Below are positions 14,798 through 63,956 of a stretch of DNA of 64,000 nt, piece by piece. The DNA lies in contig CANQQJ010000003.1 of assembly GCA_947625905.1 (NCBI GenBank), positions 55,992 to 119,991 of the forward strand, written 5' to 3'. The DNA comes from an uncultured Clostridia bacterium. GTDB lineage: Bacteria > Bacillota > Clostridia > Monoglobales > Monoglobaceae. The translations under genes and the position numbers were made by a program. Positions within the stretch are counted from its first letter, which is position 1, and every line of letters starts with the position of its first letter. The notes beneath the pieces are model-generated. The model was not told the DNA's origin. It was given only the letters and a program-made list of their open reading frames with translations, and searched no databases.

Positions 14798-14823
14798 GGG
14801 ACGCCGGGGTCGTCGTCCCCTAC
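14798..14823 (-). repeat. REP-like element, 26-nt type (GTAG GGGACG ACGACCCCGG CGTCCC)
   Basis: GTAG followed by 6-bp stem arms and 10-nt loop. Confidence 0.75.
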
Positions 14824-28181: not shown

Positions 28182-28640
28182 TTACTTTTCGTACTCCAGA
28201 TCGTTTTCGGTGAGGTCCTTTATTTTTTCGCAGTAGTCCTCGGCCTCGCGGTTCGCTTCCTCGACTCTGAGGTTGCGGAAGTTGCCGCACTCGACCTCGC
28301 TCGCGCCGGGCATCTCGCCGTCATAGACCGCGATTTCTTTGAATATATTTTTAATTAAATCGACGACCTTTTTGTTATCGGCGTTTCTCATAAGCAGATA
28401 AAAACCGGTCTGGCAGCCCATGGGTCCGAAATATATCACGTCGTCCTTAAGCTCCGAGCTGCGCGCCATCGTGGCGAAGAGATGCTCGATCGAGTGTATT
28501 GTTATGTTGTCAAGCAGTCGGCCGGTGTTGGGCTTTCTCATGCGTATGTCGTAGGTGGTGATGTCGCCGTCGATTCGGGATATGTACACCCACGGCCTTA
28601 TTTTTCGGTGGTCCACCGTAAAGCTCGCGACTTTTTCCAT
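28182..28640 (-). CDS. luxS: S-ribosylhomocysteine lyase
   Basis: FTVDHRKIRPWVYIS, HSIEHLFATMARS, FGPMGCQTGFY. Confidence 0.96.
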   Translation of the reverse strand: MEKVASFTVDHRKIRPWVYISRIDGDITTYDIRMRKPNTGRLLDNITIHSIEHLFATMARSSELKDDVIYFGPMGCQTGFYLLMRNADNKKVVDLIKNIFKEIAVYDGEMPGASEVECGNFRNLRVEEANREAEDYCEKIKDLTENDLEYEK

Positions 28641-29156
28641 TTAAAATACCTCCCCTTTAATATAATAACGATCCTGTTCCCATTTAAACAAATTGGTATC
28701 TATATAATTCCATATCCTTTCATACTCTTTTTCATTGCGTATCATATGATCATGATAAGAACACTGCCATAATGATATTCCCGTCTTTTTATTCGTAAAC
28801 CTTTTAAGCATTGACACAAACGACGGCACTATCTCATTCGTAGGGGACGGCGCCCCCGACGTCCCGCTCTTGTTATCGTTTTCAACAATCAAAATCATAT
28901 GAACATGATTCGGCATAACTATGTATTTATCTATTTTCACGCTTTCATAAATCTCTCCGGCTTTTCTTATTTCATCGTCAACAATTTTACCGAGCGGAGA
29001 CGAATCCATTTCAGGGACGTCGAGGGCGCCGTTCCCTACAACCACTTTTCCTAAAATACACTTTTTATCCTTTGTGCATATGGTTATAAAATACGCGCCG
29101 CTTTGAGAATAATTATAATACTTAAGTCTGTTTCGTTTTCTTGATTTGAATTCCAT
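28641..29156 (-). CDS. REP-associated tyrosine transposase (RAYT / IS200-like Y1 transposase)
   Basis: YFITICTKDKKCILG, HUH motif MPNHVHMILIV, WNYIDTNLFKWEQD. Confidence 0.93.
   Translation of the reverse strand: MEFKSRKRNRLKYYNYSQSGAYFITICTKDKKCILGKVVVGNGALDVPEMDSSPLGKIVDDEIRKAGEIYESVKIDKYIVMPNHVHMILIVENDNKSGTSGAPSPTNEIVPSFVSMLKRFTNKKTGISLWQCSYHDHMIRNEKEYERIWNYIDTNLFKWEQDRYYIKGEVF
28840..28865 (+). repeat. REP-like element inside RAYT CDS (antisense)
   Basis: GTAGGGGACGGCGCCCCCGACGTCCC. Confidence 0.85.
29014..29039 (-). repeat. REP-like element inside RAYT CDS (sense)
   Basis: Minus strand GTAGGGAACGGCGCCCTCGACGTCCC. Confidence 0.85.
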
Positions 29157-29969
29157 TTATAACTTATTTATTATAACTTTTAATAATCTCATCAATTTCT
29201 CGCGGATCACGGGCTCGGCGCTGTCTATCGCTTCGCGGTTGAAACCGCCGCCCTCGATGCCCGCCGCCATGTTGGAAACGCCCGAAAGCGCCAGGATCCG
29301 CACTCCGCAGTGCGCCGCCGCTATGACCTCGGGCACGGTGGACATGCCTACCAGATCTGCGCCCAATATTTTAAGCATTTTTATCTCCGCGGGCGTCTCA
29401 AACTGAGGCCCCGCCATATACGCGTACACGCCCTTCGGGAGGCTGATTCCGAGCTCATCCGCGCATTTTTCGCAAAGCTCGATCAGGCCCTTGTCGTAGG
29501 CGTTTGTCATGTCGAAAAATCTCTCGCCCAGCTCCTCGGGATTCTCGCCCCTTAAGGGCGACTCGGCGCACAGCTTTATGTGGTCGCGTATTATCACTAT
29601 ATCTCCCGGGGCGCAGTCGGGATTGACCGCGCCCGAGGCGTTTGTGAGAATAACCGTCTCGATATCCATCGCCTTGAGCATACGGATAATAAACGCGGTC
29701 TCCTCCATGGTGTAGCCCTCGTAGTAATGAAGTCTGCCCTGCATGAACACGACGGGCGTTCCGTCGAGCTCGCCTATCAACATACGGCACTTGTGGTGAT
29801 TTCTGCCGATCGGAGGAAAGCCGGGTATATCTCCGTACGGTATTATTGTTTTGTTGTCGAGACTGTCCGCCAGCTCGGCCATGCCCGTGCCGAGCACAAC
29901 GGCAATTTCTGGCGCAAGGGTTATTTTTGAATTAACGTATTCCGCGGCTTTAGTGTATGATGTTGACAT
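29157..29969 (-). CDS. Purine-nucleoside phosphorylase (trimeric class)
   Basis: VVLGTGMAELAD, GRLHYYEGYTMEE, TNASGAVNPDCAPGDIVII, AGPQFETPAEIKM, GVSNMAAGI. Confidence 0.92.
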   Translation of the reverse strand: MSTSYTKAAEYVNSKITLAPEIAVVLGTGMAELADSLDNKTIIPYGDIPGFPPIGRNHHKCRMLIGELDGTPVVFMQGRLHYYEGYTMEETAFIIRMLKAMDIETVILTNASGAVNPDCAPGDIVIIRDHIKLCAESPLRGENPEELGERFFDMTNAYDKGLIELCEKCADELGISLPKGVYAYMAGPQFETPAEIKMLKILGADLVGMSTVPEVIAAAHCGVRILALSGVSNMAAGIEGGGFNREAIDSAEPVIREKLMRLLKVIINKL

Positions 29970-52330: not shown

Positions 52331-55300
52331 ATGAAAAAATTATTGTCATATATTTTGATATTATGCGTGGCATTTTCCGTATTTTCGATTTGTCCGATAT
52401 TCGCGGAAGGCGATGCGGTCCCTTCGGAGAGCGCCGCGCTTTCGCAGGATCCGGTTCCCGCCGCGGTGCCTGACCCGCTGCCTGCCTTCCCCGGCGCCGA
52501 GGGCGGAGGAAAATACTCAAAAGGCGCAAGAGGAGCTTTGGAAAGCGGCGGCGCCGTTGAGGTGTATCATGTGACGAATCTCGACCCCGACGGCCCGGGC
52601 AGTTTGGCCGACGCGGTTGGCGACGGCGTGACGGTCGGTGATGATTCCGACACGGTCGGCAGGATCGTTGTGTTCGATGTGGGCGGAATTATCGACGTGC
52701 CCGACACTCTTTATATCAACAGAAACAACATAACGCTTTTGGGGCAGACCGCGCCGGGCGACGGAATAACTCTGACGGGCGGCGATCTAAGGATCGGCAA
52801 CGGCAGAAAAAATGTTATCATCCGCTATATGCGGGTGCGCCCCACCAACAAGAACGGCGGCGAGTATGACGGTATAGGCGGCCAGTGGAACCAAGACGTT
52901 ATCATAGACCACTGCTCAACGAGCTGGTTCGTGGACGAGGGCTTGACGCTTTACGCGGGCAACTCGGAGAACGCCACATACAAGCAGGGTCAGCGCCTCA
53001 CTGTTCAGGACACGATCACCGCGGAGAGCATGAGGATATCGGGGCATTTTAAGGGCGCGCACGGCTACGGCGGAATTTTGGGCGGCACGAACGCCACCTA
53101 CTATCGCAATCTTTTTGCCCACCATGACAGCCGCTCGCCCAGACTTGACAGAGTGCTGCAAAAGACGGATATTCAAAACAACATGATCTACAACTGGGGA
53201 GTTACCAACTCGGCATACGGCGGCGAGCCTACCTCTCCCCACAATCAGATACTTAATCCCTCAAAGATCAACTATGCCAACAATTATTACAGCTTCGGCC
53301 CAAGCACACGCGAGGACAGGAAGCCGAGAATTTATGACCTTGACAAGCTGGCCAAAACGGTTGACGGCGTTACATACAAGAGCCAATTTTATATGGAAAA
53401 CAATTATGTGGACGGCTATTCCGACGTAACTGCCAACAACTGGCTCGATAAGGCGGTCAACAAGGGCGCAAATCAAGTCGAAAGAATGAATGTGCCGTTC
53501 CTGCTCGGCGACGAGCTTTATCCCGATCTCAGCGTCAGCGAGGTTATCCCGGGCGCCGAGGTCAAGGACGCGATACTTCCCGGGATAGGAGCAACTCTGC
53601 CCAAGCGCGACGCGATCGACGCCAGAATAATCGCCGACGCGAAAAACAGGACCGGCAGGATAATCAACAATTCCGATGAGGTCGGCGGTATCACGGGCTT
53701 TGAAAAAGTTGAAAAGCCGTTTGTGATCCCCGCGGATTGGAAGACCGAAAACGGCATGGGAAGCGCGAAGGACGAAGATATTATACAAGACGGCGCAAAC
53801 GCGGGCTACACATGGATAGAGGCGTATGTTAACGATTGGACGGCCGAGCAGAGCCAAACGCCGCCGACCAATCCCGAGATAATCGTCACGTCGCCCGCGA
53901 TCGCCTCCGTAAACGGAAGCATCGGCGGCACGACCGTAAACAAAGGAAATTGGTCTGTTATTAACGACACGCAGACCGTGGCATATAAGGCGCAGGCTTC
54001 TCCGGTCGGAAGCACCGCGATCACCAAAATGGAGCTTTGGGACGGCCCGAATATGATCAAAGAATACCCGGGAGCCTCGTCGATAGACGACGCGGTATCC
54101 CTCGATATCGGCGAGCATTATCTTTCCTGCATGGCGTATAACGACGCGGGCGAGAGCACCCGCAGCACGACCTCGATAGTATACGTTAACGGCACAAAAG
54201 CTCCCGAGGGCTGGCAGATGGCAAAGATCGGCTCGCCCACATTCGGAAACGGAGCGGTTTCGGTCGATGAAAACGGCATATACACCATAGGCGGCAGCGG
54301 AAAGATCGGCGGCACGGCCGATAAGTGCAGCTTTATGTACAAGCAGATGAGCGGTAATTTTGATATTTCGATCAAGCTCGATTCGGTTCCCGCAAACGAG
54401 AACGGACCTGTTGTCGGCCTTATGGTCCGCAGCAGTTTGGACGCCAACTCGATCTCCGCGGCTCTGGTAGACGGCTGGATAAAGCTCGGCAGGAACCCGA
54501 GGATCGTTGCCAGAACCAAAAAAGGCGGGGCTCTCGCGGTCGATAATGACCAAAAATACGATGATTTAAAAGACGGAAAATCGAGTAATAGGGACAGTGA
54601 CCAGAAAATAGGTATTTTCTTTGAGGATAAAAACGGCGGCGTTGTATCCGCGAATAATTTGGGCGAGTATAACGACGGAAACAAAAAGGGTTACAACTGG
54701 CTGCCCGGCGAAGCGCACGAGCTTCCGAACTATCTCAGGATCCAGCGCGACGGCGACAATCTGGTGTTCTCGGTCTCAAATGACGGAGAGGACTACACCG
54801 ACAATATCAGACAGCCCTATATCATGAACATCAACGGCCTTCCCGAGACTATGTATGTCGGCGTCGCGATTGACTCGCACCAGGGCCAGTCGGACGCGTC
54901 GCCCAAGGCGTATTATTCGATGGCGAGCTTCAGCGATTTGAAGCTTGACAACAATTCCAACTTTGAGGGTCTGCCAACGCCCGGACCGACGCCCACTCCG
55001 GCGCCCACGATCGAACCCGGTACCGCCGCGCAATACGATCTTTGGAAAGTCGGTCAAGCAAAAGAAAATGTTAATGACGGCGAGAAGGCATATGTTAATT
55101 ATAACGGTAAGGACGCTCTTTTAGTAAAAAGCAGGAATGTTTATCTGACCCTTAGTGATCCGATTAAGTCGGGAAAAGTTGTCTTCGGCACAGATGTGTA
55201 TATAGACAAGACCGTATCCAGAAACTTTAGAATATACCTTGAGAACGGCAGCGGTATCCTATCCGACGCATCTAAGGTTCTGGCCGAGGTAGTGAATAAC

Positions 55301-63930: not shown

Positions 63931-63956
63931 GTAGGGGACGGCGCCCTCGACGTCCC
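63931..63956 (+). repeat. REP-like element, 26-nt type (GTAG GGGACG GCGCCCTCGA CGTCCC)
   Basis: Near-identical to copies within the RAYT CDS. Confidence 0.85.

Follow-up and report, generated by a model that had tools for sequence, protein, structure and literature searches.

A RAYT gene of Monoglobus with an inverted pair of cognate REPs inside its reading frame, probably kept as DNA

Introduction

Transposases of the IS200/IS605 family use single-strand hairpins as recognition elements. In the classical REPtron, the RAYT gene is flanked by inverted copies of its cognate REP, the REP has many copies in the genome, and RAYT and REP have co-evolved with the palindromes preserved (Nunvar et al., 2010; PMC2817692). 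REPs also occur within RAYT genes: the main text of Quentin et al. (2018; PMC6006769) describes in-frame REPs inside tnpAREP genes of subclass 2.4 (group 4 in the RAYT scheme of Bertels), in a variable peripheral loop and in most cases after HUH and before Y; the core phenomenon of in-frame REPs in RAYT genes is already published. That main text mentions no regular site before the HUH motif, no constant inverted orientation, no matching between copies at two sites within a gene and no genes that lack flanking REPs; supplementary Figure S10 of the same paper may show a second site. Here we describe a RAYT gene that carries an inverted pair of its own REPs, one on either side of the HUH codons, and compare it with its homologues; the arrangement bears on how RAYTs and REPs stay matched and on whether RAYT genes themselves move.

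Results

The window, a stretch of 64,000 nucleotides from a member of the Clostridia (genus Monoglobus), contains a RAYT/TnpAREP gene that encodes 171 residues (28641..29156, minus strand) and was identified by its ORF, the family NF047646, a fold match to 4er8 and its invariant residues. The protein contains MPNHVHMI with the HUH histidines at H84 and H86 (H84-V85-H86, codons at 28899..28907, minus strand), W130-Q131 and N155; the HUH motif and the downstream tyrosine motif Y-x-x-x-N(P) are present as NHVH and YIDTN (Y151, N155), with the P of NP replaced by L. Y151 is the probable catalytic tyrosine, and H84, H86, Y151 and N155 are invariant in an alignment of 19 homologues. NCBIfam REP_Tyr_transpos (NF047646) matches the protein with an E of 7e-15 and 55 bits, short of its 80-bit cut-off. 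Pfam Y1_Tnp matches weakly (E 0.18) and finds nothing in the same genome at E 0.001, so the NCBIfam model and the RAYT protein itself were taken as queries; across the class, NF047646 returned chiefly RAYTs of ~250 residues that are probably another group. The best Foldseek fold match is PDB 4er8 (TnpAREP with REP; E 3e-5), which is also the sole PDB match by sequence. The motifs of subclass 2.4/group 4 are NH[IFV]H, WQ and YIxNNP; the first two are present (NHVH, WQ), YIDTNL is a partial third, and the REP between HUH and Y that is described for the subclass is found in frame (REP B, below). On these sequence features, the RAYT is provisionally assigned to subclass 2.4/group 4.

The HUH codons are flanked by two REPs. 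REP A (GTAGGGAACGGCGCCCTCGACGTCCC; 29014..29039, minus strand) lies 5' of them on the coding strand (gene nt 118-143), where it is read in frame as V-G-N-G-A-L-D-V-P within the peptide VVGNGALDVPE; REP B (GTAGGGGACGGCGCCCCCGACGTCCC; 28840..28865, plus strand) is on the non-coding strand, 3' of the HUH codons and 5' of the catalytic Tyr codon (gene nt 292-317), where it is read in frame as G-T-S-G-A-P-S-P-T within SGTSGAPSPTN. Both are 26-nt GTAG-type REPs; they are inverted, identical at 24/26 positions and spaced 148 nt apart, with their GTAG tags facing outward (GTAG> ... <CTAC). The original prediction of near-identical 26-nt inverted repeats, in frame and around the HUH motif, is thereby borne out. 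Copy A has one stem mismatch (GGGAACG/CGTCCC), given which its activity may be fading.

These repeats belong to a family. With up to three mismatches, the REP sequence occurs four times in the window and never in 100 dinucleotide shuffles; a further copy of the family (GTAGGGGACGGCGCCCTCGACGTCCC) lies at 63931..63956 on the plus strand. The 2.96-Mb genome (G000) contains 39 copies with up to two mismatches, both internal ones included. The internal repeats had been taken for REPs of the family that this enzyme class recognizes, and they do belong to a real cognate genomic family. Coincidence is ruled out by the lack of matches in the shuffles together with the genomic family. A second variant (GTAGGGGACGACGACCCCGGCGTCCC; in the window at 14798..14823, minus strand) is likewise common in the genome, and it is this variant that occupies site B of the second RAYT gene of the genome (G000:C1:62115-62594; L053). 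The second RAYT is 44% identical to the first and has this one internal REP; another REP, oriented as at site A, lies ~111 nt upstream, and the RAYT directly precedes the ribosome-binding site of the gene that follows.

In an AlphaFold model of moderate quality (mean pLDDT 73, 8 sequences), the residues encoded by REP A form a turn between strands (40-48) and those encoded by REP B form a loop that precedes a long helix (96-105), where the pLDDT is < 50. The model fits sites A and B being surface loops, the outcome for which structure prediction of the inserted peptides had been proposed.

We then compared 90 distinct genes that belong to this subfamily, almost all of them from genomes of Clostridia; those relatives that have names are for the most part MAGs of uncultured Monoglobus, with isolate names of the form Lapin-.... 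Site A contains a coding-strand GTAG hairpin in 66 of the 90 genes and an opposite-strand hairpin in none; site B contains a non-coding-strand GTAG hairpin in 81. Both sites are filled in 64 genes, or 65 with the window's copy A, which the strict finder missed. The pair is not indispensable, because nine of the 90 genes have no detected REP at site B and others are empty at site A. The REP sequences are diverse from gene to gene (e.g., GTAGGGGCGATTCACGAATCGCCC, GTAGGGCAGGGGCTTGCTCCTGCC and GTAGGGGCCGATGACCTCATCGGCCC); nonetheless, the two copies within a gene match. The similarity between A and the reverse complement of B averages 18.6, compared with 8.9 (sd 0.36) when the partners are shuffled and a maximum of 10.6 in 10,000 permutations; this test ignores the tree, and shared ancestry accounts for some of the matching. 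On a tree of the protein core without the loops, the A stem changed at least 31 times and the B stem at least 29 times; among 32 disjoint tree pairs, changes in A are associated with changes in B (Fisher p 0.0017), the tree being weakly resolved.

At sites A and B, the homologues have different REPs, or else their loops are shorter and free of REPs. Some genes that lack a REP at site A have a loop of 22 residues compared with a median of 28, which fits the addition of a REP. Conservation in the A and B segments is among the lowest in the protein, and both vary with the REP, which rules out ancient conserved protein sequence, the finding that would have counted against the original prediction.

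At the same loops, extra REPs pile up in several genes (L058, L146 and L149 at site A; L046 and L171 at site B); in L171 an entire inverted REP pair is found inside site B, and site A is short. A search of a viral collection returned one relative (L177; IMG/VR contig IMGVR_UViG_3300029305_005738, classed viral), a RAYT with both internal REPs and another copy upstream.

Several observations concern the REPs as DNA. The three inner stem pairs, which are not anchoring positions, form Watson-Crick pairs in 224 of the 240 cells, compared with 116 (sd 7) after shuffling, and 16 stem triplets occur. Between the orthologues in G003, G004 and G010, the REPs differ at 0/54 nt and the remainder of the gene at 4-12%; at fourfold sites, G003 and G010 differ at 0/15 positions in the REPs and at 9/35 in the rest. 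A same-orientation REP is found within 250 nt upstream in nine of the 13 genes that have B and are empty at A (three or four of which are related and form a single clade), compared with seven of the 67 that are filled at A (p 2e-5); this trade-off points to a single bracket whose outer member is located either upstream or at site A. Taken together, the matched pairs, the compensated stems and the absence of synonymous change favor maintenance of the REPs as DNA.

If instead the peptides mattered, the REP-encoded loops would be part of the DNA-recognition surface, and a swap of REPs would be a swap of specificity. The loops do vary with the REP, although they do so by construction, and 47 different peptides are found at A and 52 at B. 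However, whereas site A is nearly confined to one reading frame (66/67), site B occurs in each of the three frames (59/15/7), so it is the DNA and not the peptide that is kept; the B loop lies away from the DNA site in the model of Quentin et al. (PMC6006769), and homologues without REPs retain the fold residues. We regard a role for the peptides as very improbable. The hairpins, rather than the encoded peptides, appear to be the reason for keeping the paired arrangement.

The original prediction had also allowed that the REPs are tolerated in loops. In its full form, this explanation holds that REPs jump at random, that two loops of the RAYT accept them and that the pattern records the survival of in-frame loop insertions. 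REPs inside genes are known (PMC3733652); both loops are of low confidence or peripheral, in the AlphaFold model as well as in that of Quentin; L058, L146 and L046 have accumulated multiple REPs there; and site A is under a stop-free constraint, GTAG giving TAG in one frame. Random insertion, however, would not be expected to yield a constant relative orientation, matching sequences within a gene, REPs more conserved than the neighboring sequence, compensatory stems or the trade-off with an upstream REP, and few others of 30 genomic REP loci that we inspected are inside clear genes. Random insertion is therefore an unlikely account; the location in loops stands, and the pair matching, the compensatory stems and the scarcity of synonymous changes suggest maintenance of the DNA in addition to tolerance.

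The inverted pair could also act on expression: a long A:B hairpin might form in the mRNA (or in the displaced DNA strand), or the RAYT might find a binding site on its own mRNA or gene, and either would limit its production. In the predicted minimum-energy fold of the whole mRNA, A and B pair at 25/26 positions, the 215-nt segment from A to B has a raw predicted energy of -83 kcal/mol, and the A-B spacer is fairly constant across the family (median 145 nt, range 109-262). Such pairing is, however, expected of any inverted repeat, and in some genes the outer REP is located 5' of the start codon, which would give a different structure. Autoregulation is thus an improbable reason for the arrangement.

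Whether the internal REPs are also the REPs of the host genome was assessed by counting five REP patterns across 16 genomes. The matrix is largely diagonal. The Monoglobus REP has 39 copies in G000, 16 in its congener G010 and 0-3 in each of the 14 others; the G348 REP has 117 copies, all in G348; and the G372 REP has 23 copies in G372, nine in G101 and none elsewhere. The REP of a gene is thus usually the repeat family of its own genome. In two genomes it scarcely is: G162 has two perfect internal copies and no other within two mismatches, and G023 has one further copy beyond its internal REPs, so a large genomic pool is not required for internal copies and REP spread is not automatic.

Many of the 117 REPs in G348 (L178-L185) are doublets ~100-125 nt apart with GTAG inward, and more GTAG repeats are nested between and around them. 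At G000:C12 ~53014-53111 (L026/L190), an ORF for a copper-type P-ATPase, as identified by eye, continues through two tandem REPs (VGADIIRPRDVEGAVPYDHN repeats) and on into a heavy-metal-binding domain, as though the REPs had been turned into an in-frame linker joining two genes.

The pair within the gene had been likened to a BIME-like unit. The inverted pair is there; the equivalence is loose, as clear doublets elsewhere occur in either orientation. We dropped a general equivalence with REPINs, the tags facing outward in the gene pair, inward in the G348 doublets and outward in those of G372.

The gene is tightly packed between its neighbors. The stop codon of a pnp-type nucleoside phosphorylase (29157..29969, minus strand; PF01048, E 2e-53) abuts the RAYT start codon, and the start codon of luxS (28182..28640, minus strand; PF02664, E 1.5e-47) directly follows the RAYT stop codon. 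The same pnp-luxS site is occupied by RAYT in G010 and G003 and by broken copies in G011 and G007; pnp directly adjoins luxS in G004, G005, G006, G008 and G009, and other sequence intervenes in G002. The empty site of G005 reads AGTTATAATAAATAA-TGGGGGAGTTTAAATGG, and the filled site of the window reads AGTTATAATAAATAA-[RAYT]-GGGGAGGTATTTTAAATGG. In G004, the RAYT instead sits just 5' of the ribosome-binding site of der, a site that is clean in G000, G010 and G005 and contains RAYT remnants in G003, G011 and G006. At pnp-luxS, the insertion amounts to the ORF and a few further bases; at der, ~40 additional bases precede the ORF. For the window RAYT and its full-length orthologues in G003, G004 and G010, no REP of the same family was found outside the gene within 1 kb.

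The broken copies in G011 (L062:3286-3410) and G007 (L065) have a related insert of ~90-100 nt in the REP B loop, and the frame is interrupted. Upstream of der in G011 and G003 (L209, L210), the remnant stops ~4 nt past REP A (counted from its 3' end), where the der ribosome-binding site directly follows, possibly the product of a REP-guided deletion in one event common to the two species.

At two orthologous loci, the Monoglobus RAYT is thus present in some genomes and absent from others, essentially as a bare ORF that abuts the ribosome-binding site of its downstream neighbor. Location before a ribosome-binding site is not a rule for the family, as it is found in only 14/86 genes (0-2 in control windows). 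In a tree of der and luxS, G004 and G010 are sisters, and the presence and absence of the gene demand repeated gains or losses at both loci. The RAYT may have moved by itself, the alternatives being homologous exchange or repeated deletion; the empty sites are compatible with the self-mobilization that had been among the proposals. Tentatively, and with considerable doubt, the Monoglobus RAYT could be an autonomous single-strand element reduced to its ORF, with no flanking repeats and with the internal REP hairpins as recognition ends, that inserts just before a Shine-Dalgarno sequence and leaves without a scar.

Discussion

We think it probable (roughly 0.7) that this is a RAYT in which the bracketing inverted pair of cognate REPs of a REPtron has been shifted into the reading frame and persists there for its DNA, the peptides being by-products. 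One REP lies in the loop before HUH (site A) and the other in the loop that follows HUH and precedes the catalytic tyrosine (site B); both would be retained as single-strand hairpins whose GTAG tags face outward, and the encoded peptides would happen to fit surface loops. The internal and genomic copies would change jointly, for which the simplest cause would be that the enzyme, or recombination, rewrites them from one family; with such joint change, gene and recognition sequence would travel as one piece. We also infer that the RAYT protein may bind or cut the internal REPs, from which their persistence would follow.

A cognate REP pair in the coding sequence means that enzyme and target are physically linked. 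Dozens of natural enzyme-REP matches can be read from the gene alone, and the orthologous filled and empty loci offer a direct testing ground for movement. In the literature searched, whose scope stopped short of supplementary figures, Bertels 2017 and Ton-Hoang 2012, we found no report of a matched inverted pair, of a site upstream of HUH or of an exchange between site A and an upstream REP.

The gene resembles subclass 2.4, as the main text of Quentin et al. describes it (PMC6006769), in its NHxH, WQ and Y-I-x-x-N core motifs, its GTAG REPs with a G-C-rich stem foot and their in-frame location; the sampling in that text is chiefly of Cyanobacteria and Bacteroidetes, whereas ours is of Clostridia. 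The closest solved fold is that of the E. coli TnpAREP (4er8), with which it shares the HUH-Y1 core; however, identity is ~17%, and the site-B loop is ~11 residues shorter in the E. coli protein. The HUH-Y1 fold is shared with the IS200/IS605 transposases (IS608, ISDra2) as well, but the RAYT hairpins are located well inside the coding sequence and not beside the ends of the element, and no known cleavage-site motif was recognized at the window RAYT. Flanking inverted cognate REPs, the mark of the classical REPtron, are found neither at the window RAYT nor at those of G003, G004 and G010. As in the classical REPtron (PMC2817692), two inverted cognate REPs bracket RAYT sequence and have many copies in the genome; there the pair lies outside the gene, whereas in the present gene the coding sequence contains both copies.
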